Shown here: positions 1-64,000 of the stretch, one piece after another | Position numbering within the stretch: position 1 is the first letter of the stretch | How the letters are laid out: each line of letters begins with the position of its first letter | Assembly: GCA_028753945.1 (NCBI GenBank) | Contig: JAPNXP010000001.1 | Span: 12,576,501-12,640,500 of the forward strand | Direction: 5' to 3' | DNA: 64,000 bases | DNA from: Hexactinellida sp. DTS-2022 | Lineage: Eukaryota; Porifera; Hexactinellida | The notes under the pieces: model-generated | Databases searched by the model: none | What the model saw: only the letters and a program-made list of their open reading frames with translations | Told to the model about the DNA's origin: nothing | Position numbers and translations under genes: made by a program

Positions 1-192
1 TTATAGGACTCAATGACATAAATGTAGAGGGTACTTTTGTTTGGGCAGATGGTAGCGTAAGCACTTATAGACCGTGGTTTATGAATCAACCAGATGATCA
101 TAGTAATGAAGATTGTGTGGAGGTATCGGGTGATGAGTGGAATGATATAAAATGTGAATCTCCACGAGAATGCTATTTCTGTAGCACAACAG
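1..192 (+). CDS. R1 exon: C-type lectin domain, C-terminal part
   Basis: Reads IGLNDI, then VWADGS, then a QPD motif followed by EDC and WND, the calcium site-2 and galactose-type specificity residues of C-type lectin domains. Ends at the donor gtcagt (193) in phase 1. Nearly the same as the R3 exon at 27307-27687; differs around QPD (MNQPDDH instead of PGQPDDYQ). Confidence 0.88.
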
Positions 193-3100
193 GTCAGTCA
201 GTCCCTCGAATAGAAATATATACCAAATTGTTTGTACCTAGATTAATGGAGTATTTTTATTTGGGATCCAAAGTAATACTCCATTATTCGAGCATGAATA
301 ACCAATCACCAGCAGTGAACAAATAAATATAAAAATGAAAGTATTACATTAAAATAAAATCAAAAATTAGTACAATTTGCAAAGGTGAATCTAGCAAATT
401 CAGTGTGTGTATTGTCCTGATAACTACATGTCTTTAATTAAATTCGGTGCTACTCAACACGATTGATAATGGCTGCCCGGCGAATTAATTCATAATTATA
501 CTGTTTTTCAAACCTATTACGCATAATGGCCGCTTAAATGTAATTTGTTTGGGAAATTCAAATTCTCATATTAATAGCTGAATAATTTCAGCTGCACCAT
601 TAACCAATAGATCGTTGTTGCTGTACAAATACAAATTTGTAGCTTTCTGGGACACGTACTTTTCCGATTAATTCTGGGCAGAGAAACCCACGAACACACA
701 CAGAATAATTGTGTTTTTAAATTGAGAATATTATAATTTCCATAAATACAGAGGGTTTAGAACTTTAGAGAATAAGAGCATCTGAATTTGAGTGTATATA
801 TATTTGTAGTGAGCCAATTCGGAGAACAGATCAGTCCAAATACATACACGCCATTAAGAGACAACTCATTTCTGTACAGAAACACTACTCTTTACTGCAT
901 AACAGAGACTAAAAACACACCACAAGTTACATGGAGTTATACAGATCCAAATGGAGTCAGTACTAATCTCTCTACTACAACTAATGCAATAACAGGAGTC
1001 AGCACTCTCAATGTAACTAGTGAAGAGCCAGGATACTACAGCTGTGTAGTTAGTCAGAACGGAGGGAACAATAGTATAACATATACTACTGTTATGCTGG
1101 ATTTCATTATAGGTATCTTTAGTTTGTGGTATATATACATGTAAATTACACCTGTGCGTAGAGCACCTGTTTGGTAGCACTATATTTTTGGAAAGTGTGA
1201 TAGCAGGCCTTCATCTAGTCGTAAGAGCTCCGCGAACCCTAGGTGATGTTGATTTTACAATCGCGCACCCAAATTTACCAAAACATTGCCGGCGCCACGT
1301 ATTATGAGGTGTGGGTGTAGCGGGTGTCCACTGTGTAGTCTAATGGGTGTCACCGCTTCATTTCCTTGAAGCAATGGGTGTCCGGACATCCAGACACCCC
1401 CGGTGGCGCCAGCCCTGCAAAACAGTACATTTACGCAAAAACACCTAAATTAGCAATAAAAATACACTGGACGCGCACTGCGCACCCAAATTAATTCCAA
1501 TTTTACGAACCATTCCAGCATTTTCCTTAAAATTACGAACCCCTGGGTGATAGTGCTTCGGGAAAATGCTGTGAGCACAGGTGTAAAATTATGCTTTGAA
1601 ACAATAGAATTATATTTAACATTTTGGATTGAACTCAAATGTTATTAATAATGGGAATTATAAACACAATTATGGTACAAACTAAACCCAATTTGTAGAT
1701 ATGTCCACAATAGAATTTAAACAATGATCACCATATATACTTCCTGTTATGAAATGTAAATAGGTATGAAATGTATTCAAAAATTAGTCAAGGTGTCACT
1801 CTACTAATCAAGCTCTGTTATGTGGAGAGGATGCCAAAATATACCTAGGCCATAGCAGCCACTACATAGTAATTGGCACAGCAATAATATCAATAATTAG
1901 GCAGTGATTTAGAACTGGCCTAATTCATAGCTGTCACACAGCACAATAACTTGCCAAAGCAGTGATATCAATACTGAGTCAATATACTAAAGTATCGTCG
2001 GCACACCAAATGGTAATTATTACATAAGATTGGAAATCAACTATTGTATATTAGGTGCACCAGTCTTAACATTGAATTATGGAAGTTGCAATGCGTTCTT
2101 CCTGCTCCCTCCTGCTGTCAACAGAGCTGATATTCCTGTACTCACACAGAACGTAATACTGAGTGCTAATCTAGTTGGAAGATGGCAGACACCAGATGGC
2201 AGCTATGTCGACAGCGATTCTATCACAATACCAACACTCTATGTGTCTCATGCTGGACTGTACAAGTTCTATGTTGCTAACTGGGATGGAGTATGGATAC
2301 TGGCTATTCAGATAGACATATCACCTGTTGGTAAGTTGTTTTCCATTGAAAGTAAACATTGTCAAGGTCATATGGGATTGCATATATCCAAAAAAAAATA
2401 TTTTTGAATCTAGCGTTTAATAGGACGAGCCCTTCGGTCTCGGTCGCTTAGCGCCTGTTCGGGGCTTCACGCCTCAAATGATGACCGCTGCGCGGCTTTA
2501 CTACGCCTTTAAACTAATCATTTTGAATTATACATCTCTGTGGTTTAATAAAAATATTCCTCATAAAGTCCCCTTATAGGAATGTTATACAATCTAATTT
2601 GTTTGGGAAATTCACATCCTCCCATTAGTAGTTCAATAAATTCAGTTTCACGATAAGGAAGCTCGGATCCAAATAGCACTAAAAGAAAAATAGGCAATAG
2701 AATAGACAAATGATTGATTGGTTAAATGATTTTTTTCACTCAATCAGATTGCAGCCTCAAAAAATCTTTCTATTATGCACAATCTATTTATACTAATTGA
2801 TGAAGTCTGCTAATCCATAACAGACCTTCAAAATTAATTGGCTAACATATTTGTCACCTTCAAATGTAAATACTTCTCTCCAAAAACCAATAGGTCGTCT
2901 TTGTAGTACAAAACTACCCCTGTATACAAATTTTCAGCTTTCTGGGACTCATATTATTTCCAATTATTTCTAAACCAACACACACACAAGCACACAGACA
3001 AAAATTGCGCTTTTAATATATAGATAGTATAAATAACGGACACAAACAGTTACAGACTATCGGGACAATCCATTTATGTCGCATTTAGAGGTTGTTCTTA

Positions 3101-6100
3101 AAGCATTGTATGGTAGTAGCATAGACTACTTTAATAAAGGACTGTAGGCTGCCAGCTCGGGTCTGGAACTTGGGTCCATTGTGTCCTTATTGACTCTCGT
3201 AATCCGCTAATGCTAGACACAGGAAATATATTATTGTCGTATAGGAAGTCATACTTTGGGAGTCCATTGGTCATATTGCATTGTCTCAAATATTTGTTGA
3301 ATGTGAGTTTGGCGGTTTCCATATATGGTAATGATCTCAAATTATCGACTTCAGGTAGAGTTAGACATAAGAAATGTATTATTGTTGAATAGGAAGTCAT
3401 ATGTATGGAGTCATTTAGTCAACATTGTAGCCACCCATCTCTGAGCAAGAGGAACATCGACAAATGAAATAATTTTCATTATATACACTCGAGATCTATT
3501 TTGTCCTTAGGAAATTTCCGAAGATTATGGGGCAATCTCAACCCTCCTTTGTAAAGTTCTTGCAAGAAGACTTCTGTATTTTCCTCCATGATTTCCGTGT
3601 TTATATGCTAAAATTCTGCTAGAAGATTACTTTATGTTTCAGAACGTCAGTAGAATCAGGAAGTAGCTGTGTGCCTTCGATACAGGGCTCCTGCACAGAT
3701 CTACATAATGTATATGATAGATGCAGTACAGTATGAGCATTTACAATATGTAAGCATCTGGTGCAAACGCTCTACCTTGCCTGCAGAGTTTACATTTACA
3801 TCAATGTAAATTGTAAATGTTACCACCATGTCGCTGCCTGGCTTGCCCGAAAATTATTTTAGAGGATCCTAAGAGGAAACTTCAAGTAGGACAAACTCGA
3901 ATTGGTGACACGTGGCTTGATGCAGGGGCGGGCGATTCCCGTCGCCCCCCCCCCAAATATCCCAAGCTTAATATTATACTAGTATTGTGCTTTGAATCTA
4001 CTTAAACCGCCCCCCAAAAAGCCACTTAGACCGCCTCCCCAAAATAAGCTCCCAGCGCCACCACTGGCTTGATGGTAAATAACTTCAGTACAAAGGCTCT
4101 TGAATTTCTTAACATCCTGTATAACCGTCAGATCCCTTTGTAAATCACTCGATACGCTCGCTTTGTTTCTTAGGCACCCCTTTTAACATTACTGGATCCG
4201 CTAGTGATTCTTATACGTATAGTAAGGCTATAAGCCAATTAGTTGCTGTGTAAATAAACAATTTTACAGATGTAGCTGGTATCTCAGAGGTCTAGCACAT
4301 TCGAACGTTCACCAGTATGATAAATTCACTATCCCTACCTATATATGTACATATCCTCTTTTGCACACAAAATGTATAATATACACGAAAAATGAATCCC
4401 ATATTAAATTGGATGGGACTTAATGATAATAATTATTGTAGGCGGATCATTTGGAGTTCAAATCAACACAACAACTTTCATCACTCTACCAGAGGATTCC
4501 ATTCTGATATCGAACACTACTCTCTACTGCATAACTAGCAGCATAAACTCAACAGAGGTGGAGTGGAGCTATGAAGATGTGTTTGGTAACACAACTAATC
4601 TCTCCGCTACAACTAATGCTAGCACGGGATTAAACACTCTGTCTGTAACTACCGATGTGCCAGGCTACTACAGCTGTAGGATCTCTCTGGAAGGAGGAAT
4701 GTATAAGACATACACTGTTGAGATGATTGATGTATCTCAGTACACAGGTACGTGTAGTTAAGTTTGTTAATTAATTGGATTCATAGGACCACCAAATAAA
4801 CTTTGCCGCAATAACTTAACAACTGTATTTTAAAGTCATATACACGAGAACATTTTGTAACCCATTAGTAATCAATGAGTTCTAATATGAAGTTTGCCGT
4901 TTTAACCAACACAAAGCTAAACACTATTGCACCCATACTTACTGGCTTTAAATACTATGAATAAGGATGCATCTGAACACACATACTAAGGTGATGTATC
5001 TAGAATCTAGATTAAAAAAGTGCGAATATCCTCAAATATCCTAAGATAGTTCAAAAGTTCAAAAGTCCCCAATAGATTAGACATTATGATAAGGAGACAA
5101 AATCAAGAAATAGTAAGGATATCCAGTCGCACTACAGTGAACAAATACATATGTCATTAATGTACTTTCAACCCCTTAGTTGCTGAGAATACAGATAGCT
5201 ATCAATACACAGTGGGAGTAGATGCATACAATATATTCCTGTTCTGTCACAGTCCTGATAATTCAGTTCAGCTCTCCGATATTCATTGGAAGAGGCAGGA
5301 TAGAATTGGATTCTACCCAAACCCATTGGACCTACACAGACTGGGATATCTCCTCAAATACACCAACACTCATCCGATGGAATGCTTCGATACAGAATCT
5401 GGTAATCCTATCATGAGTGTTCAGCTCTACGTACAGGGTGAGTGATTGGAAATTTAGCATATTCATATAAAATATTGTTTAACTTCATACACATACTGCA
5501 TAAATAACATAACTATTATCTCATGAAAGAGTTCACCACTAACAGTGGACATACGAAGAAATTTATTCTCATTTCTCCATAAAATTGACCTGTGTTAAGA
5601 ATAAAAGATCGAATAGTTTGCTATAAAATCTTCGATCATTCCCAAATAACGATTATAATATAAAAAGGGTCTACGATAGGATCACGATCCTCAATAATAA
5701 ATCGAGATCCTCATCGTAGATCATGGATCGAAAGTTCTTAATTCCCTTGGGCAAATAAATAATATAATATTTTTCACAGCCTATGAACTCTATAACTGTG
5801 GCAATGTTCCATTTCCTCTTTACGAGAATTCACCTTCAATTGAAGATAAAAGTTAAATTTGTATGTCACCCTAAAGGTGTCAGCCATAATACATAATCGG
5901 TATAATTCAATGATGAGACGTTAGTTGAAGGAGGAAAAATATGTAGGGTACCCAAACAGGGATTTATCAAGTAATTTCTATTATCAGAATTTTTGTCAGA
6001 GACCTTACACCAAATTAAGTGCCAACCCGGAACCTAACCTCAACCGATTCCTGGATGGCACCTAGATAAACCTTTGATTACTGAATACAAGAAGGTAGCA

Positions 6101-7194
6101 AGATAAGTGTGTCATAGCTAATCTTATCAGCCAACCTGTTATTCAACAGTTCTGCAAGCCAACTTACGAATATAGGATATCATTCTTTAAAAAATTTCAA
6201 TACCAACGAGACTTTCGTATCAATTAGGTCCTCCAATAATAAAATTATTTCTCGAACACAACACAACATTCTCTCTTCTCCCTCCTGCTGTCAACAGAGC
6301 TGATATTCCTGTACTCACACAGAATGTAATACTGAGTGCTAATCTAGTTGGGAGATGGCAAACACCAAATGGCAGCTATTTCTACAGTGATTCTATCACA
6401 ATACCAACACTCTATGTGTCTCATGCTGGACTGTATAAGTTCTATGTCGCTAACTGGGAAGGAGTATGGACACTGGCTATTCAGATAGACATATCACCTG
6501 TTGGTAAGTTTATAATCGTATCAGCAGTATTTTGTTATATATTGATCCTACTCACAGAAATATTTCCATTCTTCTTTTTATAGAAACTTATTTACAGACA
6601 ATCCTGTATCTGACGACAGAAACCACCAGCCAAACTTCAATGCTAGTTGCTTGGAGTCTGTCAGAAACGAACCCATACAATTCAGAAGGGACATTCTCAG
6701 TATATTTTGGGTTTGGGAATTTTGAATTTTTAGTTGGTATAACAAAGAATCTCTTTCTTGGAATAACAGGATTAATTCCAAACGTTAACTATACTGTGCG
6801 AGTCGAGCTCCAATACCCTTATTCTGCGTTGGTAATATCCGCCACTACTCACCATCTCCTAGCTCTGAGTGGAGACACCACTACCAATACAGGTACAACA
6901 ACTGAATCTCCTATTAACACTCAACTGAATGCATCCTATACAATATACACATTCATAGCTGTGCTTGCTATATTCGTAACTATCCTTTTACTCGTTCTAC
7001 TAATCTGTGTCCTATTTGTGTGTGCTATGAAGAGAGGCAGTAGGAGCAAAGTGAACTCGCGTAATAATCAAATACAAATGGCCCAGATACACGATGATGA
7101 GTTATACGAACAAATGGATCGCACCAAACCAATGGCACATAACAATAAGTCGTTTCTGTTCTCAGATAATGTAAACGTTTCTGAGACAAAATAA
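1..7194 (+). CDS. R1, long-form lectin/Ig/FN3 membrane receptor gene (5' end outside window)
   Basis: Spliced model: 1-192, 810-1112, 2055-2330, 4442-4747, 5180-5437, 6228-6503, 6584-7194, giving 739 residues without an in-frame stop. Domain order is C-type lectin (C-terminal half), Ig-a, Ig-b, Ig-c, Ig-d, Ig-b', FN3, Thr-rich stalk, membrane span, 55-residue tail. All junctions are GT-AG and phase 1. The signal-peptide exon and first lectin half lie upstream of the window. It is the closest relative of R3, with the same exon order and matching introns. Inferred role: a cell-surface recognition receptor with a calcium-dependent lectin head and a YxxM signalling tail. AATAAA overlaps the stop (7190-7195) and ATTAAA lies at 7414-7419; either could be the poly(A) signal. 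Exon calls rest on conservation among copies, not on transcripts. Confidence 0.85.
810..1112 (+). CDS. R1 exon: Ig-a domain
   Basis: Canonical Ig pattern: Cys in TLYCIT, Trp in VTWSY, and GYYSC near the end. Acceptor tttgtag (ends 809), donor at 1113. 303 nt, phase 1-1. Several NxS/T sequons. Confidence 0.9.
2055..2330 (+). CDS. R1 exon: Ig-b domain (Ig-like, no canonical disulfide)
   Basis: 276 nt, phase 1-1. The core Trp (GRWQ) and HAGLYKF strand are Ig-like, but the two cysteines are replaced (SANL and KFYV). 5' end reads GAPVLTLNYGS, which separates Ig-b from Ig-b'. Confidence 0.82.
2410..3030 (-). repeat. GT-microsatellite/GC-hairpin element (family M2), reverse copy
   Basis: Begins with the GC-rich end (cgagcccttcggtctcggtcgct, with gcgcctgttcggggcttcacgcc) and ends near (ac)n and gcgcttttaatatatagat. 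The same ~0.6-kb sequence recurs at 30270-30860 and, opposite, at 56770-57280. It fills much of the R1 Ig-b to Ig-c intron. No coding capacity seen. Confidence 0.6.
3117..3420 (-). repeat. Single arm of the P-like element (relic)
   Basis: Matches the terminal inverted repeat of the element at 24277-26279, starting catagactactttaat. Equivalent relics lie in the same intron of R3 (about 31520-31800) and R5 (about 53405-53715), so it predates duplication of the long genes. The short ORFs here are not conserved as genes. Confidence 0.6.
4442..4747 (+). CDS. R1 exon: Ig-c domain
   Basis: 306 nt, phase 1-1; acceptor attattgtag, donor gtacgt (4748). Cys in TLYCIT, Trp in VEWSY, PGYYSC near the end. 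About half of its residues match Ig-a, so Ig-c and Ig-a are paralogous exons. Confidence 0.9.
5180..5437 (+). CDS. R1 exon: Ig-d domain (divergent Ig-like)
   Basis: 258 nt, phase 1-1. Starts VAENTDSYQYT; Cys in FLFCHS, Trp in IHWKRQ, Cys in MECFD give an Ig-like C-W-C spacing. Not obviously derived from Ig-a or Ig-c. Found only in long genes. Confidence 0.82.
6228..6503 (+). CDS. R1 exon: Ig-b' domain
   Basis: 276 nt, phase 1-1. The first ~45 nt (GPPIIKLFLEHN) differ from Ig-b, whereas the rest is almost the same DNA as Ig-b at 2055-2330. YVDSD of the other copies reads YFYSD here. Lacks the canonical cysteines, like Ig-b. Confidence 0.85.
6584..7194 (+). CDS. R1 last exon: FN3, stalk, transmembrane, cytoplasmic tail
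   Basis: 203 residues. FN3 at about 1-93 (VAWSLS core Trp; GLIPNVNYTVRV is the typical FN3 G-strand region); Ser/Thr-rich stalk 94-118; membrane span about 121-148, followed by KRGSRSK as stop-transfer; tail 149-203. YEQM (Tyr 175) is a YxxM motif. Residue 171 is Asp. Preceded by an 80-bp intron. Confidence 0.9.
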
Positions 7195-8866: not shown

Positions 8867-8930
8867 ATGAAAATACTATCAATATTGGCTATTATTCTCT
8901 ATTTGGGGATATTTTCACAACAAACAACAG
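8867..8930 (+). pseudogene. R2 exon 1: signal peptide
   Basis: MKILSILAIILYLGIFSQ is a typical secretory signal: Lys, hydrophobic run, small polar end. Ends phase 1 at the donor gtaaac (8931). Itself undamaged; classed pseudogene with the rest of R2. An upstream in-frame ATG (8810) is not kept in R6, so the later ATG is preferred. Confidence 0.85.
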
Positions 8931-9225
8931 GTAAACATGTTAAAATATTAAATATATTGTTACGCAGAAGTATAGATACGTTAAGTATTCATTGAATGAT
9001 TATTTATAACATGATAAACAATCTCAAAAGAAGGGAATCTGAGCTCTATTTCTAGAATATATATATTTTAGAGACTTTTCTCTAGTATACGGTAGATAAT
9101 ATTAATATGACTCAAAATACATGATTTCTTGGTTGGATTTCATAGTGGAATATTATCAAAGAGTAAATACTACAACTTGTATCAAGTTGTATGTTAATAT
9201 TTATTTGGGTCAAATCTATCTGTAT

Positions 9226-9600
9226 ATTAAAAGCGGAATTGTTGTGTGTGTGTGTGTGTGGGGATGTTTGTCCAGAATTAATTGGAAAGACTACAAGTCC
9301 CAGAAAGCTGAAAATTTGTATACAGGAGTAATTTTGTAGTGCGACAACGATCTATTAGTTTTTGAAACAAAATAACGGGATTATGATGTCACAGTTGCGA
9401 AAAACAGATATTTTGTACTAGCTTCCCAATTTTGCTCCGATTTGTGGAAAATTCAAAGCATTAGACGTACACTAAATTTCTACACCTGATAGCAGTTCAC
9501 GAATTCCCATTTTTCTTCTGATTGTGACACAGTTAATTAATTAGTCCCTGCACTAATCAACCATAAATAGTGTATCGTACCAACACAGGTATAGCAAAGT
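9226..9600 (+). repeat. M2-family element, 5' part
   Basis: Begins ttaaaagcggaattgttgtg with (gt)n, then tccagaattaattggaaagac and cagaaagctgaaaatttgta. The same sequence recurs at 10328-11130 and in reverse in each lectin to Ig-a intron. Confidence 0.65.
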
Positions 9601-9946
9601 GCAAAATCGATATCGATTGTGTTCTATTGCAAACAATTCAAGTAAGATGATTAACGAAAGTTATTAGTTCAAATGTATCATATTATTCTCAGCAATGTGG
9701 GTGATCTGATTTGTTTGGTTAACAAGAATGCACTCGAGTAGTTAACTTCTCTGATGCATTGTTTATTTATTACACCTATATTGGCTTCCTATTAATATGA
9801 CAATTAATGGAATTACGTAATTTCTAACCTATACTGAAATTATGAAATTAATTAAGTAGTTGATTCATCAAGGATTTAGGATCTGTCTAATTATGAGATT
9901 GATATGTTTATTATTACTATCAATTAAATCAAATATTTTATACAAC

Positions 9947-10051
9947 CCTGGATTTAATCTCTGCATAATAATGGTTTAATGGTGAGAATAAGACCGCGAA
10001 GCGGTCTTATTCTCATCTTTAAACCATTATTATGTAGAGATTAAATCCAGG
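9947..10051. repeat. Near-perfect 105-bp hairpin
   Basis: Two arms of about 51 bp with a GAA centre: cctggatttaatctc... folds onto ...gagattaaatccagg, with gaccgcgaagcggtc at the tip. A truncated arm recurs at 13108-13140. Confidence 0.75.
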
Positions 10052-10557
10052 CTAAGTAAATTACTTTGCAATATAATATACCTACTGAAATAAATAATTT
10101 CGTATAATTTATCAGCCACGGGTTTCAATTTATTTGAGCTAACAAGCTAACCTTTTAATGGAGCTGAAATGAGCTACCATAGTTAAGAATTATTGAGCCA
10201 ATATCATATATTATTAACTAACAATTAATAAGTAATAAGTAATGAGAATAACATATATAACACATCATTTCCCAAACAGATTACATTAACGAATCACAAC
10301 CCAGAATGAATTTAAGCGCGCGTTAAAGCGGAATTGTTCTTTGTGTGTGTGTGTGTTTTCCAGAATTAATAGGAAAGACTACGAGTCCCAGAAAGCGGAA
10401 AATTTGTATCCTAGGGTAATTTTGTACTGTGACAACGATCTATTGGTTTTTGAAACAAAATAACGGGATTATGACGTCACAGTTTCGAAAAACAGATTTT
10501 TTGTACTAGCTTCCCAATTTTGCTCCGATCTGAAGAAAATTCAAATCATTGGACGTA

Positions 10558-10743
10558 CAGTCGAAACCGGTTTATTCTAACTCGGGTTATTCTAACTTAT
10601 CGGTTTATTCTAACTATTAGTAATGCAATCTTTTGTAAGAAATTCCAACTATACTGTATTTTTCATCGGTTTTTTCTAACTATGGGTTTTTTCTTACTAT
10701 TTTTATCTGAAAAGAAATGGTTAGAAAAAACCGGTTTGAACTG
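10558..10743. mobile_element. Tc1/pogo-like MITE, 186 bp
   Basis: Inverted ends CAGTCGAAACCGGTTT and AAACCGGTTTGAACTG, flanked by TA. The related sequence at 9461-9480 reads gtacactaaatttc uninterrupted, which is the empty site. Confidence 0.85.
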
Positions 10744-12220: not shown

Positions 12221-12502
12221 GTTGAATTAATGTAATTGTGTATTGATTGATGACTCCATTACATAATATATAGAGCATAAGATCGTAGTATAGTAATAAT
12301 AAATTTTAATTAAGATTTTTCTGATTATTCCTGATAGGAATTTAAATCTATTATATATGAAATGGTTCAAGATTGTTGTAATAAACAAAGCATCATGTTA
12401 TCAAAAATTCACCTAATGACAAAGCCACACGTAATTGAACAAATAACGAATAATTGATTACCAAGAAATGTAAGCGAAAAAATGAATTAAAGAATATAAT
12501 TA

Positions 12503-16100: not shown

Positions 16101-16147
16101 TCTTGTATTAATAAATTGTCAATTATAAAATGGACGTTTGTTTGTAG

Positions 16148-50900: not shown

Positions 50901-53900
50901 TCTTTAAACAATAGAATTAGATCTAACATTTTAGATTGAACTCAAATGTTATAAATACAGAAATTATTATCCCAATTATGGCACAAACTGATCCCAATTT
51001 AATAATATGTCCACTGCAAAAGGTATACATTTCAATTTTCAATTGAATGAATGTAAATTTAACAATGATCACCATATATTCTTCTCGATATGAAATGTAA
51101 ATAGGTATGAAAATGTGTCCAAAAATTAGTCAAGAAGTCACTTAGTTAATCAAGCTCTGTTATGTGGAGAGGATGTTTATCAAAATAAACCAAAGCAATG
51201 CCTGCCACTACATAGTAGTTGGCACAGTAATAAAAATCCAAAATTGCAGCCTGTGCCGACGCATGTTCCTTTGGTGGCACTATATTTTGTTGGTGGTTTA
51301 TTGATAGTGCCTCCAAAGGAACATGCTGTCGGCGCAGGCTGCAATTTTGGATTTTTTTCGCCAAGTCATCGACGCCCAAGGTGTGAAGAACCATTTGTTA
51401 ATTGGTCGGAGTCACAAGGAACGGTAGTTAAATTTGAAGTCAGTTTCTATCATAAACCATCTTGAGTTTAATGCCATTCATTCATTATGTATTGATAATA
51501 AGTTATAGTATTAGTTATTTATTTTAGCAATGTTATCCATGGTTGGTTGAGTTGAGTCAACAAATTCCTTATATTATATTAATTTATTTAATCCATTGTA
51601 TAGTAATACTAGAATTAAATAGAAGCCAGCTGGAATTTATAAGTTAAATCAATATAATTATCGCAATTTGAATCACTAGAGTAGGATTTAACAAGTTAAA
51701 TCAATATAATTATTACAAGTTGAAACAATAGAATTAGATTTAACACTTTACTGAAATTGAAGTGTGAGTAAACAAAGAAATTTCAACCCCCATTTATGGC
51801 ATAAATTGACCCCTTTATTGAAAGTTTTCTTCTCCCATCAGACGCAGAATTTTATGGTAAATCCAAATATGAAATAAAATTTGGGGGTTTAGTAAAACAT
51901 CTTTTTAGTTATGGACCAGACAAATTTTGAAAGGTTCAAAAATGTGTCCAAAATTGGTTAATCAAAAATCGTAACCCCAGGTGAAAATTATACGTCGACT
52001 CCGAACCTACATGCCAAGTTTCAGCCCTCTAGGTATATAGGTGTGGCCAGGGCACCGTCTACGGAGAAAATAATAATAATAATAAAAAAATCCAAAATTG
52101 AAGCCTGTGCCGACGCATATTCCTTTGGTTGCACTATATTTTGGTGGTGGTTTATTGATAGTGCCTCCAAAGGAACATGCTGTCGGCACAGGCTGCAATT
52201 TTGGATTTTTAACCATGTCATCATCACTTGAGGTGTTAAATTATTTCAGAAAGGTGTTTCAAAAGACAACGACCCTTCGTGAGTTGGAAGTTTCGTTTTA
52301 GCTCACTTCATTTCAAAGATATTCAAGTTTCAGTAGAATATAATAAGTGATGAGTCAGCATTTTTATGTGCTTGTTGGGTGATCACCCAACACCAACCAA
52401 CCCATTCGAAATATAGAATTCACAAAATTGTAGAAACACTTTTTTTTTACGATGTCATCATCACCTCAAGGTGTCAAGACCCACTTGTATAGGTGGTACG
52501 TGGCATAAGGACCAATTGATAAATTGAAAGTCGGCACAGTAAAAATATACCAAAGTAGTAAGATTAGAACTGGGCCACTATACTATAGTATAGTCGGCAC
52601 AGTAATAATATAAATAAAGGCAGTAAGATCAATACTGGGCCACTATACTATAGTATAGTCGGCACAGTAATAAGGCAGTGATTCAGAATTGGGGGACTAA
52701 TTCATAGTTGTCGGCAAAGCATAAAAACTAGCCAAAGCAGTGATATCAATACTGGGCCACTATACCATAGTATAGTCGGCACAGTAATAAGGCAGTGATT
52801 CAGAATTGGCCTAATTCATAGTTGTCGCCAAAGCATAAAAACTAGCCAAAGCAGCGATATCAATACTAGGCCACTATACTAAAGTATAGTCGGCACAGTA
52901 AATGTAAAAAGTATGACACAAGATTAGAAATTAACTATTGTATATTAGGTGCGCCAGTCTTAACATTGAATTACGGAAGTTGCAATGCATTCTCTCTGCT
53001 CCCTCCTGCTGTCAACAGAGCTGATATTCCTGTACTCACACAGAATGTAATACTGAGTGCTAATCTAGTTGGAAGGTGGCAGACAACAAATGGCAGCTAT
53101 GTTGACAGTGATTCTATCACAATACCAACACTCTATGTGTCTCATGCTGGACTGTATAAGTTCTATGTCACTAACTGGGATGGAGTATGGACACTGGCTA
53201 TTCAGATAGACATATCACCTGTTGGTAAGTTGGTTGCCATTAAATGTATACATTGTCAAGCTTATTTTGAGCGCAAATGTCCAAAAAATTATATTTTTGA
53301 CTCTAGCGTTTAATAGGATAATGAACACAAACACTTACAGACTATCGGAACAATCCATTTATGTCGCATTTAGAGGTTGTTCTTAAAAGCAATGTATGCT
53401 AGTACATAGACTACTATAATAAAGGACTGTAGGCTGCCAGCTTGGGTCTGGAATTTGGGTCCATTGTGTACTTATTGACTCCCGTAATTATCTAATGCTA
53501 GACACAGGAAATGTATTATTATCGTATAGGAAGTTATATTTGGGAGTCCATTGGTCATATTGCATTGTCTCAATATTTGTTGAATGTGAGTTTTTCGGTT
53601 TCCATATATGGCTTTTCCTTTAATGGTAATGATCTCAAATAATCGACTTCAGGTAGAGTTAGCCAAAAAAATGTATTATTGTCGAATAGGAAGTCATGTG
53701 TATGGAGTCATTTAGTCAATATTGGTTAACTTCCCATCTCTGAGCAAGAGGAGCATCGACAAATGAAAGAATTTCCATTATATACACTCGAGATCTATTT
53801 TTGTCCTCAGGAAATTTTCCAGGAGATTGATGGCCATGTGGACAGAACATGTGGTGATTATGGGGCAATCTCAACCCTCCTTTGTCAAGTTCTTGCAAGA

Positions 53901-56900
53901 AGATTTCTCCTTCTCCATGTTATCCGTGTTTATATGTTAAAATCCTGCAAGAAGACTACTTTATGTGTCACTAGAATCAGGAAGTAGCTGCGTGTCTCGA
54001 TACATCATATCTACATCATGTATATGATCAGGAACGGTGCCAGGATTTTTCCCTAGGAAGCGGCATATAAATTTCCATTGGGGGGCAAACATTCTATTGG
54101 TGTTAGATCTAGTAGTTGAGTAAGTTGACGTTACCAAAAACTTGGCGATGAGGTTGAACCTTTTTAATTTAATGTTCTGTAAAGTATGAAATGTAGTCTT
54201 CAGAAATCAAAACATTAACAAGAATTTTGCAACCCTAGGTAATACTACAACTTAAAACTACTAGCTATAATGACAGTTAAAAATCAATTTTGACAGGTTT
54301 CATGTCTAAAGTAAAAGGTGTATTGGGTTTGTAAACAGTTGATTAGATGTTAGTAACAAAATTGCCAAAATAACTAGGAATATCCTATAATACGCAGCTA
54401 GATTACTAACAGACCATTCCTGTCAACCGTATACAGGGATTTGGACTACACATATTTTGGTTTTCTCTACAGACGTACAGGGATGGAAAAATTTGTAGAG
54501 AAATTACTAGTTAGAAAAATTATTGATTGTCTGTCGAATAAATTATTACCTAAATGCCTAAACCCTAAAATGTAGAAGTTTGATTTGTTGAAATTAACAC
54601 CCTATTCAAGCGTACAGGGATTATCTGTATATAAATCAAAATTTTCTGTGTTCCTAAGTGATATTTTGATTTATGTCAATCTGATTAAGACTAAATATCA
54701 TAATCACATGTATATCTTGACAAACATAATACAAAGATTTGGTTAGTGTAATTCATTTCAGTATAAGTGTAGATTTACATGCTAGACGAGCGAGCGGAGC
54801 GAGCGAGAAAAATATTTTGGTGTCCAGGGAACTTGGCCAATGTACAGGGGAAAATTGAAGGTAGAGGGATGGATCAAAGGAATAAAATAGTTATAAAATG
54901 TTTTACCAGGGGGGGGAATTGCCCCCTATGCCCCCCGTGTCGACGCCCTATATATGATAGATGCAGTACAGTATGAGCATTTCCACTATGTCAGCATTTG
55001 GCGCAAATACTGAACCTTGCTGCAGAATTAACATTTACATCAATGTAAAAGTTACCACCGTGTCGCTGCCTGGCTTGCCTGAACTTAATGATTATAATCA
55101 TTGTAGGTGGCTCATTTGGAATTCAGATCAACACAACAACTTTCATCACTCTACCAGAGGATTCCATTCTGATATCGAACACTACTCTCTACTGCATAAC
55201 TAGCAGCATAAACTCAACAGAGGTGGAGTGGAGCTATGAAGATGTGTTTGGTAACACAACTAATCTCTCTGCTACAACTAATGCTAGCACGGGATTAAGC
55301 ACTCTGTCTGTAACTATCGATGTGCCAGGCTACTACAGCTGTAGAGTCTCTCTGGAAGGAGGAATGTATAAGACATACACTGTTGAGATGATTGATATAT
55401 CTCAGTACACAGGTACGTGTTGTTAAGTTTGTTAATTAATTAAAAGCTAATGACTCACCAAATATTCATTTCCGCAATATACGTACTTAATTGTATTGTG
55501 TATTGTGATCTACAAGTAATCAATGAGCTCTAATATGAAGGTTGCCGCCCTAACCAGCACAAAGCTAAATACTATTGTATCCATACTTACTGGCTTTCTA
55601 TATGAATAGGTACGCATCAGAACAGATATGCTAAGGTGATGTATTTACTATCTAGATTGAAGTGCCAATATCCTCAAATATCCTAAGATTTCCTACTTAA
55701 TAGACACTATTTCTTGGTAAAAGTTCAAAGGTACCCAATAAATTGGACATTATGATAAGGAGACAAATCAGGATACAGTAGGATATCCAGTTGCACTACA
55801 GTGAACAAATATACATATAATTTATGTACTTCCAAACCCTTAGTTGCTGAGAATACAGATAACTATCAATACACAGTGGGAGTAGACACAGACAATATAT
55901 TCCTGTTCTGTCACAGTCCTGATAATTCAGTTCGGCTCTCTGGTATTCATTGGAAGAGACAGGATAGAATTGGATTCTACCCAAACCCATTGGACCTACA
56001 CAGACTGGGATATCTCCTCAAATACACCAACACTCATCCGATGGAATGCTTCGATACAGAAACTGGTAATCCTATCATGAGTGTTCAGCTCTACGTACAG
56101 GGTGAGTGATTGGAAATTTAACACAACTATCTATTTATCTATCTATCTATCTATCTATCTACGTATATATTAAAAGCGCAATATTTATGTGTGTGTGTGT
56201 GTGTTGTGCAGGAGGATGTCCTCATATAGAAAAAACTTGTCCTCGTATCTAGAGATGTGAGGACAAAAACCCAGATATGAGGACATTTCGACCATATGAC
56301 AGGCCCGTAGCACCGCCAACATTTATTGGTGCGGCACAGTGACGTCACCATATTTATTATAAACATACATGAATCTTTTCTTCTTTATACGCGCTTTTAC
56401 TCTATGTTTTAAGTTACTCCACTAAGGGAAATTCAAAAATTCAATAATACTAATAAAATTTTTATACAGTCTTTATTGAAGTGTAGCAAGAGTTGCTACT
56501 TGGTAAAGAATCTAATGGTTACAAATACGAGTATTATAATAATGGTTATGAACAGTTTGGCGGTGGCAGCAGGCTAGCAGCACGAAGTTGTGTTTACCAA
56601 TAGCATTATGTCGCTCCTATAGTTGTCGGTGACTTAAATGTGTTCCCGAATATTTGTGTGGTCACTAAAATTATTGGTGCGGCCATGGCCGCACCTGCCG
56701 CACCTGCTCCTACGGCCCTGTTATGAGGTCATGAGGACAAAAACCATGATATGACGACATTGACCTGCGTGTTGTCCAGAGTTAATTGGAAAGACTACGA
56801 GTCCCAGAAAGCTGAAAATTTATTACAGGGGAAATTTTGTACTGCGACAACGATCTATTGTTTTTTTAAGAGAAATATTTACATTTGAAGGTGACAAAAT

Positions 56901-59587
56901 ATGTTAGCCAATTAATTAATTGGTAATTTTAATTGTTCAATTAATTGTTAGTATGGATTAGCAGACTTCATCAATTAGTATAAATAGATTGTGCATAATA
57001 GAAAGATTTTCTGAGGCTGCAATTTGATTGATTGAAAATAAATTCATTTAACAAATCAATCATTTGTCTATTATATTATATGTTTTCTTTTACTATTATT
57101 TGGATTCGAGCTTCCTTATCGTGCATCTGAAATTTATTGAGCTACTAATGGGAGTATTTGAATTTACAAATTACATTGTGTAGCATTCTTATTAAGGGGA
57201 TTTTATGAGGAATATATTTAATACGCAACAGAGATGTATAATTCTAAATGATTAGTTTCAAGGCGTAGTAAGGCCACGCAGTGGTAGTCAATTGAGGCGT
57301 GGTATTATTAAATCTCGGTTGTTGTGTGTGTGTTTGTTTGTTTGTTTGTTTGTTTGTTTGTTTGTCCGGATTGTATTAAAGTGATGGGGGAATAGAAACC
57401 GCATTTGTATATGAGATATGAGATATAAACTAACTTTAAAATGTTCTAATTGGTAAACAAATGTTGTAATAGGTAAACAAGTATACTGATTTCAAATTTT
57501 GGCATTTACAAATTTCTAATATGAATATTTATTGTTGTTGCTTACCAAAATATGTAAAAAATTAATGAAATTCAAAATCAATCAAGAAGTTAGCTTTCAA
57601 CGGTTATTATAGGTATACAAGTATGCTGAAAAACAAGTTAAAACTATGGAAATCTTATAAAGGGATGTATATAACGTCCATTTCTACCATTTTCCATGGC
57701 AGAAAAGGTGAGGAGTAAGGCCGCACAGTGGCCATTTACTTGAGGTGCGTAGCACCGATCTGTCGCAAAGCGACCGAAACCGAAGGGCTCGTTTTTATAA
57801 AATATTGTTTAACTTCGTACATTACACTGCATAAATAGCATTACCATTATTTCGTGAAAGAGTTTAGTACAAACAGTGGACATACGAAGAAATGTGTCTT
57901 TTTTTCCATAAAATGACCTGTGTTAAGAATACAAAGATCGACTAGTTTCATATAAAATCTTAAATTTTATCCCAATCACGATCATATTAAAAAAAGGGTC
58001 TACGAAACGATAAAGAATCGAATCGAGATCCTCATCGTTAAAGAATCGAGATCCTCATCATAGATTATGAATCGAAAGTTCTTAATGCCCTTGAGCAAAT
58101 AAATTGTTATATTTTTAACAGCCTATAAACTGTATAACTGTGGCAATGTTCCATCGCCTCTTTACGAGAATTCACCTTCAATTGAAGATTTTCACCAAAC
58201 AACTAAATTAGGGGTTTATCTAGGTTTGTCTTTTCCGGCACTTTTTTGATAAAAGTTAAATTTGTATGGCACCCTAAAGATGTCACCCATAATACATAAT
58301 CGGTATAATTCAATGATATATTTGAAGGATGTAAATGTTCCCAAGCAGGGATTTATCAATGAATTTCTATTGCAAAAATCTGTTAGAGACCTGGCACCAA
58401 ATTAAATGCAGCCTAACTTCATTCGGTGGGTGGCTGGCTCCTAAAAGTCCCAGCCAGGCACCTAGATAAACCTCTGATAACTGAATACAGGGTGTCATAG
58501 CTAATCTTATCAGCCAACCTGTTATTTACTGTTTCTGACAGCCAACTCACGAATATAGGATATCATTCTTTTAATTTGAATACCAACGACACTTTTGTAT
58601 CAATTAGGACCTCCAATAATAACATTATATATCGAACACAACACAACATTCTCTCTGCTCCCTCCTGCTGTCAACAGAGCTGATATTCCTGTACTCACAC
58701 AGAATGTAATACTGAGTGCTAATCTAGTTGGAAGATGGCAGACACCAAATGGCAGCTATGTCGACAGTGATTCTATCACAATACAAACCCTCTATGTGTC
58801 TCATGCTGGAGTGTACAAGTTCTTTGTCACTAACTGGGATGGAGTATGGACCCTGGCTATTCAGATAGACATATCACCTATTGGTAAGTTTCTAATCGTA
58901 TCAGCAGTATTTTGTTATATTGATCCTACTCACAGAAATATTTCCATTCTTCTTTATATAGAAACTTATTTACAGACTACGCTGTATCTGACCACAGAAA
59001 CCACCAGCCAAACTTCAATGCTAGTTGCTTGGAGTCTGTCAGAAACGAACCCATACAATTCGGAAGGGACATTCTCAGTATATTTTGAGTTTGGGAATTC
59101 TGAATTTTTAGTTGGTATAACAAAGAATCTCTTTCTTGGAATAACAGGATTAGTTCCAAACATTAACTATACTGTGCGAGTCGAGCTCCAATACCCTTAT
59201 TCTGCGTATGTAATTTCCGCCACTACTCACCATCTCCTAGCTCTGAGTGGAGACACCACTACCAATCCAGGTACAACAACTGAATCTCCTATTAACACTG
59301 AACTGAATACATCCTATACAATATACACATTCATAGCTGTGCTTGTCATATTAGTTACTATACTATTACTCGTTCTACTAATCTGTGTCTTATTTGTGTG
59401 TGCTATGAAGAGAGGCAGTAGGAGCAAAGTGAACTCGCGTGATAATCAAATACAATTGCCCGAGATACACTATAATGAGTTATACGAACAAATGGATCGC
59501 ACCCAACCAATGGCACATAACAATAAATCGTTTTTGTACTCAGATAATGTAAACGTTTCTGAGACAAAAGAAAACAATTTGTTCTGA
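47930..59587 (+). CDS. R5, long-form lectin/Ig/FN3 membrane receptor gene
   Basis: Spliced model: 47930-47993, 49342-49719, 50467-50766, 52949-53224, 55107-55412, 55844-56101, 58608-58883, 58962-59587; 2484 nt, 827 residues plus stop, no interruption. Same domain order as R3 with the common MKILS signal peptide. All junctions GT-AG, phase 1. The lectin exon is closest to R6, not to R1/R3. The tail has IHYNEL, a consensus ITIM, directly followed by YEQM. The usual TAA stop is mutated to GAA, adding ENNLF before TGA. Introns carry a 922-bp hAT-like element, paired hairpin MITEs and a tandem repeat absent from R1 and R3. Confidence 0.88.
48293..48716 (+). repeat. M1-family element in R5 intron 1
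   Basis: Starts attaaaactcgattgttc, ends ggccgcatagcggcc, gtgcgtagcac and gggctcgtattta. Confidence 0.7.
49342..49719 (+). CDS. R5 exon: C-type lectin domain
   Basis: 378 nt, phase 1-1. CWIGLNDI, GQPDDAGSNEDC, NNWND, CYHC. Asp replaces Val in TFDWADGS. Shares loop length and KRS-CWIGL with R6. Confidence 0.92.
49741..49808. repeat. 68-bp near-perfect palindrome after R5 lectin exon
   Basis: Two 34-bp arms without a loop, 2 mismatches, containing ccaaattgtttgtaccatga. Different bases from the R2/R4 palindrome at the same place. Confidence 0.9.
50467..50766 (+). CDS. R5 exon: Ig-a domain
   Basis: 300 nt, phase 1-1. YCIT, VTWSY, GYYSC; YATRD where most copies have YVTSD. Confidence 0.92.
51232..51356. 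repeat. 125-bp hairpin MITE, copy 1
   Basis: aaatccaaaattgcagcctg folds onto caggctgcaattttggattt, with ttcctttgg and ccaaaggaa inside. A more decayed relative follows Ig-a in all copies. Confidence 0.85.
52085..52210. repeat. 125-bp hairpin MITE, copy 2
   Basis: Same hairpin as 51232-51356, about 850 bp further on in the same R5 intron. Confidence 0.85.
52572..52890. repeat. Tandem repeat in the R5 Ig-a to Ig-b intron
   Basis: ggccactatac...tatagtcggcacagtaa occurs four times (about 52574, 52639, 52755, 52870; spacings near 65, 116 and 115 bp). R1, R3 and R4 have one unit. Confidence 0.8.
52949..53224 (+). CDS. R5 exon: Ig-b domain
   Basis: 276 nt. GAPVLTLNYGS start, GRWQ, HAGLYKF; no canonical cysteines. 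Confidence 0.88.
53405..53715 (-). repeat. P-like element arm relic in R5
   Basis: catagactactataataaagg and gctgccagcttgggtctgg match the arms at 24277 and 26279. Confidence 0.55.
54029..54950. mobile_element. hAT-like element, 922 bp, in R5 intron
   Basis: 8-bp duplication tatatgat (54021-54028 and 54951-54958). R1 (about 3710) and R3 (about 32147) show the empty site gtatatgatag. Same family as 38952-39917. Contains gcgagcggagcgagcgag. Confidence 0.92.
55107..55412 (+). CDS. R5 exon: Ig-c domain
   Basis: 306 nt, phase 1-1; YCIT, VEWSY, PGYYSC. Ile replaces Thr in VTIDVPG. Confidence 0.92.
55844..56101 (+). CDS. R5 exon: Ig-d domain
   Basis: 258 nt, phase 1-1. FLFCHS, IHWKRQ, MECFD. DTDN at the position of DAYN (R1) and DADN (R3). 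Confidence 0.87.
56126..56160. repeat. (ATCT)n microsatellite
   Basis: About eight ctat/atct units shortly after the Ig-d donor. Confidence 0.9.
56300..56720. mobile_element. hAT-like element, 421 bp, nested
   Basis: Ends caggcccgtagcacc and the inverse gctcctacggccctg; inner ggtgcggc motifs. It splits a sequence rich in gaggacaaaaacc/gatatgaggacat. Confidence 0.65.
57303..57790 (+). repeat. M1-family element with (TTTG)n
   Basis: attattaaatctcggttgttg, (tttg)8 run at about 57332-57364, gtccggattgtattaaag; ends ggccgcacagtggcc, gtgcgtagcac, gggctcgtttt. Located in the R5 Ig-d to Ig-b' intron, nested in an M2 copy (about 56770-57295). Confidence 0.7.
58608..58883 (+). CDS. R5 exon: Ig-b' domain
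   Basis: 276 nt. Starts GPPIITLYIEHN; remainder nearly as Ig-b. Followed by a 78-bp intron that is open in frame. Confidence 0.9.
58962..59587 (+). CDS. R5 last exon: FN3, stalk, transmembrane, tail with ITIM and YxxM
   Basis: 208 residues. FN3, Thr-rich stalk, span, tail. Ile169-His-Tyr171-Asn-Glu-Leu174 is IxYxxL; Tyr175-Glu-Gln-Met178 is YxxM. The C-terminus runs five residues beyond the SETK end of other copies because the stop codon changed. Confidence 0.92.
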
Positions 59588-61213: not shown

Positions 61214-61277
61214 ATGAAAATTCTATCAATATTGGCTATTATTCTCTATTTGGGGATATTTTCTCAACAAACAACAG
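61214..61277 (+). CDS. R6 exon 1: signal peptide
   Basis: Same MKILSILAIILYLGIFSQ as the others, with silent differences; donor gtaaac. Confidence 0.9.
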
Positions 61278-64000
61278 GTAAACATATTTAAATTATTAAA
61301 TATACGAGCCCTTCAGTCTCGGTAACCAAATTCCAACTATGGAAGCGCGCTACGTAATTATGAACCACACAAAATTGAAAATGAGTGGTTTTAGACTAAT
61401 TTTCAACTGGCATTACCTATAAATAATTGATGTATAATCAAATTAAATTTCGCGTCATTAAGTAATCGCTTGAGACCATTTATCCTATACTGAATACGAA
61501 TATTTGTATAGAAATGGTTGGACAATAATTGTAGAAGATATTTTAACTTAATAAGCAACTTCAAAACGTATCCCTTAATTAATTAATTAATTAATTTAAA
61601 CCCGCGGTTGGCGCGGGGCAAAGGTATAAATAGAAAAAAACCAATTTCATTTTCACTTTCAATTGAAATTCAATTAATTTTCACATGCAGTTTCACATTC
61701 CGCGCAAACCGCGGGTTCAAATTGAGTGGTCAATTTTCGAAACATTGATTTTCGATTTAGCAATCACAGTATTTTGAAAAATACATAATTTGCATTGAGG
61801 AACAAACCTGGAAAGTTAGAAATATATATTTTAAAAACAAACAACACTATCTACAAAACTATTACTGCATATATGGGCGTCGTTTGAGTTACCGCAGGGC
61901 AGTCGAATGGTCACTTACAATTATAATGACTACATAAAGACATAATAATATAATGTCAAATATAAAATGGACGTTTGTTTGTAGCACCTTCAAACGGTTG
62001 TGCTGCAATTTCAGATAAAGGTAGATGTTACAACTCTTTCACAAGCTCTGGTATTAACTGGCATGATGCTAGAAATATGTGTATAGCGCTGGGAGGAGAT
62101 CTAGCTACTGTTACATCTCTCGAAGAGCATACAATGTTACTTGGCATCAAACGATCTAGTTGTTGGATAGGACTCAATGACATAGATGTAGAGGGTACTT
62201 TTGTCTGGGCAGATGGTAGCGAAAGCACTTATAGACAGTGGAGTCAGGGTCAACCAGATGATTCTGGGTCAAATGAAGATTGTGTGGAGAATTGGCATTA
62301 TAGTAACTGGAATGATAGACCGTGTGAATATACACGAGGTTGTTATTACTGTAGCACAACAGGTCAGTCAGTCCCTCGAATAAATTGTACCAAGCTTAGT
62401 ATAGTATGTACGTATTTCGGAGTAAAAGTACAAATGGCAATTGACCAATGACCATTCGAGCACGAATAACGAATCACCAGCTGCGAACAAGTAAATTGAA
62501 AATTCTTTTTGTAATCAATGTTTAAACATCTGGTAGAAAAATTGTTATTATTAATTTATTACCTTAAAATCAAATCTAAATTAGTACTATTTTCAAAGGT
62601 GAATCTAGTAAATACGTACAGTGTGTGTATTGTCCTGATAACGACATGTCTTTAATTAAATTCCGTGCAACACAACTCATTTGATAATGGCTGCAGGGCG
62701 AATTATTCAGAATTATAATGTTTTCAAACCTATTACGCATAAAGGCTGCTTAATATGATTGTTACACAATGTAATTTGTTTGAGAAATTGAAATTCTCAT
62801 ATTAATAGCTGAAGATTTCCAGCTGTACCAAAGGCCAATATATCGTTGTCGCTGTACAAATACAAATTTTGAGCTTTTTTCTGGGAATCGTAGTTATGGA
62901 CAAAGAAACCCAGAACACACACACACAACAATTGTGTTTTAAATATTGAGAAAATTACAATTTCGATAAATACAGAGGGTTTAGTCTAAACCCTCTGTAT
63001 TTATCGAAATTGTAATTTTGGTTAGAGAATAAGAGTATCTGAAGTTGAGCGTATTAATATTTGTTAGTGAGCACATTTGGAGAACAGATCAGTCCAAACA
63101 CATACACGCCATTAAAAGACAACTCATTTCTGTACAGAAACACTACTCTTTACTGCATAACAGAGACTAAAAACACACCACAAGTTACATGGAGTTATAC
63201 AGATCTAAATGGAGTCAGTACTACTCTCTCTGCTACAACTAATGCTACAACAGGAGTCAGCACTCTCTATGTAACTAGTGACAAGCCAGGATACTACAGC
63301 TGTGTAGTTAGTCAGAACGGAGGGAACAATAGTATAACATATACTACTGTTATGCTGGATTTCATTATAGGTAGCTGTAGTTTGTGATATAGAAAAATGT
63401 AGAATTACAGCTGTGCCTAGAGCACCTTTTTTGGTGGCACTATATTTTGGAAAAGTGTGATAGTGCTTCTAAAGGAAATGCTGTGAGCACAGGTGTAAAA
63501 TCATCACTTGAAACAATAGAATTATATCTAATAATTTGGATTGAACTCAAATGTTATAAATACAGAAATATAAAGTTTATAAACCCAATTATGGTACAAA
63601 CTAAGCCCAATTTGAAAATATGTCCACTGTTAAAAGGTATACAATTCATTTTTCAATCGAATGAATATGAATTAAACAATGATCACCATATATTCTTCCC
63701 TTTATTAAATGTAAAATAAGTATGCAAATGCGTCCAAAAATTAGTCAAGATGTCACTCAGTTGATCAAGCTCTGTTATGTTGAGAGGATATTTTCCAAAA
63801 TATATCTAGGCAATACCTGTCACTACAAGTCGGCACAGTAATAATCTATATTATTAAATCTCGATTGTTGTGTGTTTGTCCGAATTGTATTAAAGTGATG
63901 AGGGAATAGAAACCGCATTTATATCTATATTATTAAATCTCGATTGTTGTTTGTTTGTGTGTGTGTGTGTGTGTGTGTTTGTCCGGATTATATTAAAGTG
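61214..64000 (+). CDS. R6, lectin/Ig receptor gene, 3' part outside window
   Basis: Visible exons: 61214-61277 signal peptide, 61985-62362 lectin, 63068-63370 Ig-a; all open, phase 1, GT-AG. Later exons lie beyond the window, so long or short form is unknown. An upstream in-frame ATG seen in R2, R4 and R5 is followed by a stop here, which supports MKILS as the true start in all copies. The alternation of forms predicts a short gene, but the lectin exon is closest to long-form R5. Confidence 0.85.
61596..61722. mobile_element. MITE with CCCGCGGTT inverted ends
   Basis: aacccgcggttggcgcgg at one end, ccgcgcaaaccgcgggtt at the other. Its interior (aaagtgaaaatgaaatt-like, ctatttatacctt reversed) matches sequence upstream of R2, R4 and R5 (8330-8405, 40075-40150). 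Confidence 0.75.
61985..62362 (+). CDS. R6 exon: C-type lectin domain
   Basis: 378 nt, phase 1-1. CWIGLNDI, GQPDDSGSNEDC, WND, CYYC. Differs from R5 mostly beside QPD and after WND. Confidence 0.92.
62957..63019. repeat. Palindrome of about 33-bp arms before R6 Ig-a exon
   Basis: ttacaatttcgataaataca...gggtttag is followed at once by its complement. Other copies have only the first arm. Confidence 0.9.
63068..63370 (+). CDS. R6 exon: Ig-a domain
   Basis: 303 nt, phase 1-1. YCIT, VTWSY, GYYSC; ends LDFIIG before the donor gtagct. Confidence 0.92.
63843..64000 (+). repeat. Two M1-family 5' ends in tandem
   Basis: tattaaatctcgattgttg occurs at about 63850 and 63932, each followed by gt-rich DNA and gtccg(a/g)att(g/a)tattaaagtg; the second leaves the window. 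Confidence 0.7.

Follow-up and report, generated by a model that had tools for sequence, protein, structure and literature searches.

A 64,000-nucleotide stretch of chromosome C1 of the hexactinellid sponge Hexactinellida sp. DTS-2022 (contig JAPNXP010000001.1; C1:12576501-12640500, the whole of which is called here the window) carries a tandem array of genes with one plan, in which a signal peptide and a C-type lectin domain (CTLD) precede a stack of immunoglobulin (Ig) and other modules, one FN3-like domain and a membrane span, and the tail bears a tyrosine motif. In the window and its flanks, the plus-strand genes R0 to R6 alternate by exon type: short, long, short, long, short, long, short. 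On balance, judging from motifs and domain matches, we lean towards the reading that the array encodes cell-surface Ca2+-dependent lectin receptors for glycan recognition, with uptake or signalling via the tail.

The genome searched comprises 112.4 Mb in 18 contigs. Among marker families, Frizzled has two matches in it and the homeodomain 16; scans for Wnt and Neur_chan gave none, with the controls equally silent, and so carry no weight as evidence of absence. Of its 32 peptidase-C1 matches, four were judged by the Ser active site of silicateins and show no trace of one. With the R3 exon translations as queries, copies were annotated over 276 kb of C1 and at seven further loci, among which the relatives denoted C1b, C9 and C10 were traced exon by exon, and those denoted C5 and C1c for two exons.

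Gene models and order of the array

In self-comparison, much of the window is covered by long direct repeats, which, together with the exon search, bear out the six same-strand copies (R1 to R6) recognized in a sequence-only reading of the window; the plan they were said to share is intact in only four, R2 and R6 being broken. The spliced exon models of R1 (826 aa), R3 (827 aa), R4 (540 aa) and R5 (827 aa) contain no internal stops, and R3 and R5 translate to exactly the 827 residues predicted in that reading. Long genes (R1, R3 and R5) consist of CTLD-IgA-IgB-IgC-IgD-IgE followed by an exon for FN3, membrane span and tail, and short genes (R2 and R4) of CTLD-IgA-IgB followed by the same last exon. 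The order long, short, long, short, long from R1 to R5 is thus as initially proposed, and R6, left open in the sequence-only reading, is short by its exons in the flank. Counting copies in the flanking DNA, as that reading advised, adds a short copy upstream of the window (R0), the 3' end of R6 and the minus-strand copies R7 to R9. The lectin exons start 27.5 kb apart in R1 and R3 and 25.8 kb apart in R2 and R4, in agreement with the spacing of about 26-28 kb given in that reading for two copies of a two-gene module; the distances are 22.0 kb between R3 and R5 and 20.0 kb between R4 and R6.

Exon edges were checked at positions homologous to those of R3, so that the tally, which covers the exons downstream of the signal peptide in 15 copies, is not independent of the R3 rows that set these positions: the acceptor AG is present in 72 of 75 cases and the donor GT in 61 of 62, with phase 1 set throughout, and the failures are confined to R6, R7 and R9, copies that carry other lesions too. 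Signal-peptide exons, all with phase-1 donors, fall into two types, one in R0, R1, R3, R7, R8 and C5 and the other in R2, R4, R5 and R6. None was found upstream of R9, C1b, C9 or C10.

R1 (long, plus strand, window positions 1-7194) starts outside the window, with the signal peptide at -2033 to -1961 (C1:12574467) and the CTLD at -185 to 192, and continues with IgA at 810-1112, IgB at 2055-2330, IgC at 4442-4747, IgD at 5180-5437, IgE at 6228-6503 and the last exon at 6584-7194. R2 (short, plus strand, 8867-19164) is a pseudogene, with the signal peptide at 8867-8930 (by analogy with R4), the CTLD at 16148-16519, IgA at 17279-17578, IgB at approximately 18200-18474 and the last exon at approximately 18546-19164; its CTLD has QLD in place of QPD. 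In the R2 intron between the signal-peptide and lectin exons, there are short tandem repeats rich in CCGGGAT, at 11244-11352 and 12818-12864.

R3 (long, intact, plus strand, 24023-37328) comprises the signal peptide at 24023-24095, the CTLD at 27307-27687, IgA at 28675-28977, IgB at 29918-30193, IgC at 32745-33050, IgD at 33650-33907, IgE at 36370-36645 and the last exon at 36718-37328. Its first intron holds a 2,005-bp element (24276-26280) that ends in inverted repeats of about 540 bp, 92% identical, and looks like a foldback-type transposon; end pieces of it, and no second whole copy, are present in the 276 kb. R4 (short, intact, plus strand, 40620-45422) has the signal peptide at 40620-40683, the CTLD at 41982-42353, IgA at 43109-43408, IgB at 44007-44282 and the last exon at 44812-45422. 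R5 (long, intact, plus strand, 47930-59587) has the signal peptide at 47930-47993, the CTLD at 49342-49719, IgA at 50467-50766, IgB at 52949-53224, IgC at 55107-55412, IgD at 55844-56101, IgE at 58608-58883 and the last exon at 58962-59587. R6 (short, plus strand, 61214-64000) continues past the window, with the signal peptide at 61214-61277, the CTLD at 61985-62362 and IgA at 63068-63370 inside it, and IgB and the membrane span and tail at C1:12642204-12642896.

Lectin head, module stack and tail

By its matches to Lectin_C (PF00059; E 4.1e-14 and 1.1e-18 for two window heads), the head unambiguously belongs to the C-type lectin domain superfamily. All 17 heads compared retain the WND motif, and the second Ca2+/sugar motif is QPD in 10, EPN in five, QLD in one (the R2 pseudogene) and EPT in one; R3 has a head of the QPD type and LB one of the EPN type. 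Among the best 60 of 133 matches to solved structures, the closest to the R6 head include LY75/DEC-205, the macrophage mannose receptor, CD23 and DC-SIGN, proteins whose overall architecture is unlike that of the window genes.

IgA and IgC match PF00047 (ig) in 10 of 10 alignment rows, with C29, W41 and C78 invariant, which places them in the immunoglobulin superfamily. The FN3 label is weakly supported by family models: PF00041 is matched by six of eight rows (best E 2.5e-5), the R3 row not among them, and the R1 and R3 last exons have no match to it at E 0.1; the PDB profile matches are likewise weak (E 0.03-1; mainly monobodies and Eph and interferon receptors). Thus, of the domain labels given in the sequence-only reading, Pfam confirms the lectin and IgA/IgC, and FN3 weakly, and yields no convincing match for IgB/IgE and IgD. 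These last are two further modules: a cysteine-poor one denoted b/e, exemplified by R3 IgE (36370-36645, plus strand; core LLPP...GxW...GLYKF), and one denoted d, exemplified by R3 IgD (33650-33907, plus strand), with Cys-Trp-Cys spacing as in an Ig domain. The b/e alignment consists of 10 rows (from C1, C3, C9, C10 and C15) and produces weak PDB profile matches to an NKG2-D entry (E 0.009), Hoc (0.058) and KIT (0.2), with others above these values; the d alignment of seven rows gives a single weak match, to a Contactin-3 chain (E 0.065). Both modules may adopt an Ig-like fold.

The last exon of R3 (36718-37328, plus strand) encodes the FN3-like domain (approximately 36720-36992), a Thr/Ser-rich stalk, one membrane span and a 53-residue tail with one YEQM. 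All 12 genes with a readable end encode a hydrophobic span and, after it, a tail of 34-79 residues, as the sequence-only reading had it for the window, and in an otherwise poor AlphaFold2 model, the membrane helix (residues 232-268) is the sole confident part, with 10-residue blocks reaching a predicted local distance difference test score (pLDDT) of 89. At least one Y-x-x-[M/I/L] motif occurs in each of the 12 tails, and in 11 of these it stands at the homologous place, with Met at +3, as in the phosphoinositide 3-kinase (PI3K)-type motif YxxM, in six, Ile in four and Leu in one. In C1b, the only motif is YTEL, four residues upstream of that place, and C10 retains the motif even with a last exon that is 38% identical overall. 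The R4 and R5 tails have an added, overlapping YNEL (YNELYEQM); their sister genes have YEQM alone. The consensus of the immunoreceptor tyrosine-based inhibition motif, (I/V/L/S)xYxx(I/V/L), is found in three of the 12 tails (R5, IHYNEL; C1b, VDYTEL; C10, IGYETI) and is not fitted by those of R0, R1, R3, R4, R6, R7, R8, LB and C9. The immunoreceptor tyrosine-based activation motif consists of two YxxL/I motifs 6-12 residues apart, and none of the 12 tails has this spacing: nine contain one YxxΦ, R4 and R5 contain two that overlap, and C9 contains two whose starts are 43 residues apart.

Duplication, divergence and relatives of the array

Growth of the locus by duplication of a two-gene unit (short plus long) is supported by the comparison of the R1/R2 and R3/R4 modules, whose 17 matched pieces, some of which overlap, total 14.1 kb with a mean identity of 89.2% and have insertions between them. 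Between R1 and R3, identity is 97-99% in the CTLD, IgA, IgC and IgD exons and falls to 92-93% in IgE and the last exon; their synonymous distance ranges from 0 to 0.14 by exon. The most similar of these exons would fit an assembly artefact in which two haplotypes were joined in tandem, a concern raised in the sequence-only reading, but the drop in IgE and the last exon, the synonymous distances of up to 0.14, the large insertions between module pieces at 89% identity, the arrangement of three unequal modules plus a seventh gene, and the dispersed copies on other chromosomes speak against it, and we reject it as very improbable. In R5, the signal peptide and upstream DNA resemble those of R4 and R6, and the d and e exons are as in long genes, so that the gene is apparently a mosaic, short-type at the 5' end and long-type at the 3' end.

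The synonymous distance is 0.21 in the head versus 0.07-0.13 in the Ig modules, a contrast suggesting that gene conversion has acted on the stalk, and not selection alone; such conversion probably keeps the Ig modules alike. Of the earlier suggestion of a multigene recognition-receptor locus, the multigene membrane-receptor locus grown by duplication of short and long pairs stands, and the recognition role is one that we infer.

Maximum-likelihood estimates of the ratio of nonsynonymous to synonymous rates (ω), made with R2, R6, R9, C9 and C10 set aside, are 1.06-1.12 for CTLD codons 76-130, 0.57-0.62 for codons 1-75 and 0.78-0.81 for the whole head, compared to 0.55 for IgA, 0.42 for IgB and 0.36-0.39 for IgD. 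Relative to a run intended to hold ω at 1, twice the log-likelihood difference (2ΔlnL) is 0.2 for CTLD codons 76-130, 7.0 for codons 1-75, 8.6 for IgA, 6.9 for IgB, 5.5 for IgD, 4.7 for FN3 and 5.8 for the membrane span and tail. Pooled pairwise ω, which includes R6, R7, R9 and C9, is 0.80 for the CTLD, 0.33-0.63 for the Ig modules, 0.44 for FN3, 1.01 for the stalk and 0.75 for the tail, and lies below 1 in each of seven exon types; in a codon bootstrap, ω of the head exceeds that of the Ig modules (P 0.03). Among eight copies of the CTLD, codon positions 1 and 2 differ at 0.166 and 0.169, versus 0.128 at position 3. The heads vary most in the sugar-binding half. Positive selection on the head, which we considered, is unsupported, ω of 1 not being rejected for the whole head or for codons 76-130, and recombination weakens tests based on trees.

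The close copies number about 19, including pseudogenes and one fragment, and relatives of the window family are found on C1, C5, C9, C10 and C13. Past the array, the minus strand carries R7 and two short copies, R8 and R9; no lesion was detected in the exons found of R0 and R8. A long minus-strand gene (LA/LB; L009 and L010) occupies C1:12410839-12428055, about 138 kb before R0. Its head consists of CTLD-IgA-IgB twice in tandem, 97-98% identical, and the gene could be double-headed or make alternative use of its heads; for LA, a candidate signal-peptide exon lies 17 kb upstream. Dispersed relatives include long ones on C1 (at 9.62, 10.22 and 16.02 Mb), short ones on C5 (one) and C9 (two), and a compact form (lectin, Ig, d, e and FN3) on C10 and at C1:11.89, the forms of those whose DNA was not fetched being read from the proximity of matches alone.

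Genome-wide matches to single modules, all lower bounds, number at least 55 for IgA, 42 for IgC, 21 for IgD and 46 for IgE, in sets that overlap for IgA and IgC and that take in IgB for IgE. On C3, C10 and C15, divergent module copies neighbour lectin exons, as do copies of the Ig modules on C17. At least 110 lectin exons (Lectin_C) are present in the genome, and 62 of the 110 are chained with at least one family module, where a chain denotes same-strand matches within 15 kb, that is, a grouping by proximity and not a gene model; the other 48 have no family module in their own chain. Because 62 of the 110 lectin exons chain with the same modules, the window family is, by this grouping, one branch of a larger lectin-headed superfamily with a repeating exon trio (Ig, d and b/e).

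Some further loci are of note. On C15 (940390-999080), an array of paired lectin exons is followed by Ig, d and e modules, and places in it repeat, with equal scores, at exactly 11,196 bp (943003/954199 and 952062/963258); this reflects either a duplication of very recent date or one introduced by the assembly. The lectin loci C4:614251 (L006) and C13:961348 (L007) are 97% identical over 2.2 kb, which suggests that a lectin gene moved recently. An exon for FN3, membrane span and tail (74% identity) stands by itself at C13:429828-430418, where nothing up to 15 kb away matches a lectin or an Ig module.

Proposed glycan recognition and alternative readings

In the scheme that we favour, glycan recognition at the cell surface, a signal peptide would lead in a C-type lectin head carried by stacked phase 1-1 modules (Ig, d and b/e). 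Below these would follow a single FN3-like domain, the membrane span and a tail, the last containing one or two YxxΦ. QPD heads would prefer galactose-type and EPN heads mannose-type ligands, as these motifs are read in the literature (PMC8226959), and the long and short forms would differ in how far they hold the head from the membrane. When receptors cluster on a surface bearing glycans, be it that of a bacterium, a symbiont or another cell, the tail would be triggered, through tyrosine phosphorylation and SH2 recruitment for signalling, or through AP-2 endocytosis for uptake. The array would have expanded by duplication of the short and long pair, with the stalks homogenized and the sugar-binding half drifting or diversifying. 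A crayfish lectin with an Ig and a C-type lectin domain, PcLec3, is described as binding bacteria and promoting phagocytosis, an immune role that has been shown; it differs from the window genes in being a protein of 252 aa, reported as secreted, for which the available part of the report mentions neither FN3 nor a membrane span (PMC4944128).

Several observations weaken the glycan-recognition reading. R2 contains an internal stop in IgA and frameshifts in IgB and in the last exon; R6 has a stop codon in IgB and a last exon without FN3; in R7, IgC and FN3 are missing and IgB is truncated; R9 is cut short by a premature stop in its membrane span and has lost an acceptor; and IgA of the C9 copy is interrupted by a stop. 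For b/e, Pfam offers nothing convincing (one of 10 rows matches I-set at E 0.035, and one GH43_C at 0.031), and for d, there is no Ig match in Pfam (one of seven rows matches DUF1496 at 0.013); profile-profile comparison of b/e and d with IgA and IgC was negative, and the AlphaFold2 models of b/e and d (mean pLDDT 40.0 and 49.5) are too poor for a fold search. In addition, ω of 1 is not rejected for the whole head (2ΔlnL 2.7), IgC (1.5) or IgE (1.9), the tail evolves fast, and ω does not exceed 1 in the sugar loop (columns 78-118; bootstrap 95% range 0.55-1.40).

The main rival, to which we give perhaps one chance in a handful or slightly better, is cell-cell adhesion or allorecognition, whereby the heads or Ig stacks would bind conspecific glycans or receptors, and copy and allelic variation would serve individuality or tissue adhesion. 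Hydractinia uses multi-copy membrane Ig receptors for allorecognition, the 41-member Alr family (PMC11999971), the fly protein Contactin, with CTLD, Ig and FN3, is an adhesion protein of septate junctions (PMC8006247), and the mosaic appearance of R5 would fit as well. The retention of canonical sugar and calcium motifs, with WND in every head compared, and the homogenization, as opposed to variability, of the Ig modules argue against it.

It is rather unlikely that these are endocytic scavenger lectins for nutrition, taking up glycoproteins or bacteria, in which YxxΦ would be an AP-2 signal with no part in signalling. Under the motif rules for AP-2 and PI3K, the mixture of Met, Ile and Leu at the Φ position fits AP-2 better than a strict YxxM, and the solved relatives of the head (among the best 60 of 133) include lectins known for endocytosis; the long and short alternation and the QPD/EPN split would remain unexplained. 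Even less probable is, for the most part, a decaying gene nursery, in which selection would maintain little function in the tandem duplicates other than one or two. The broken R2 and R6, the damaged R7 and R9 and the stop in C9 are what such a nursery would leave behind, but four intact copies reach into the window, R0 and R8 are free of lesions in the exons found, and pooled ω is below 1 in all seven exon types, significantly in several.

A more elaborate version of receptor function is a long shot: a combinatorial system of about 60 heads on interchangeable modules, with arrays in which conversion evens out the stalks and the heads diversify, paired long and short receptors, tail motifs that vary and in some copies resemble the inhibition motif, and possible head switching, the last proposed because of the duplicated LA/LB heads and the double lectins on C15, which would give individuals their own repertoires for symbiont or self recognition.

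With respect to known systems, Drosophila Contactin reportedly contains six Ig and four FN3 domains and no tail, and its copy number differs from that of a multigene array. Because it combines a C-type lectin-like domain with Ig and FN3 in one protein, the domain set itself is not new, and the sequence-only statement that no named family has this exact architecture does not hold as worded (PMC8006247). As described, Contactin is GPI (glycosylphosphatidylinositol)-linked, unlike the window genes, with their membrane span, YxxΦ tail, one FN3 and multigene array (PMC8006247); because of the span and tail in place of the GPI link, we set the window family apart from Contactin, by description. Hydractinia Alr differs, again by description only, in that the available text mentions no lectin head, whereas the N-terminal domain of the window genes is a C-type lectin (PMC11999971). 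The sponge Halichondria panicea has 157 CTLD genes (PMC8242945), and the ctenophore Mnemiopsis has combinations of CTLD and Ig (PMC11797021), but the available parts of both reports are domain inventories, with no tandem family of long and short receptors. Within the literature searched, consisting mostly of journals open without subscription and available in part, the window receptor family was not found described; judged by domain matches, it would be a variant of a known domain set, arranged as a lectin-Ig-FN3 membrane-receptor array for which no description was found. The Geodia proteins GSAML and GSAMS are said to be sponge Ig-like proteins with long and short forms and no lectin head. 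An Ig-like adhesion molecule of Geodia is also mentioned in the accessible portion of PMC11999971.

In the repeating exon trio (Ig, d and b/e), two of the three modules have no convincing Pfam family. To our knowledge, it is still an open question which receptors sponges use to discriminate symbionts, food bacteria and other individuals. The array described here provides a candidate recognition family of about 19 close copies, for which sugar classes are predicted, a tyrosine motif is conserved, and long and short forms occur as natural pairs.

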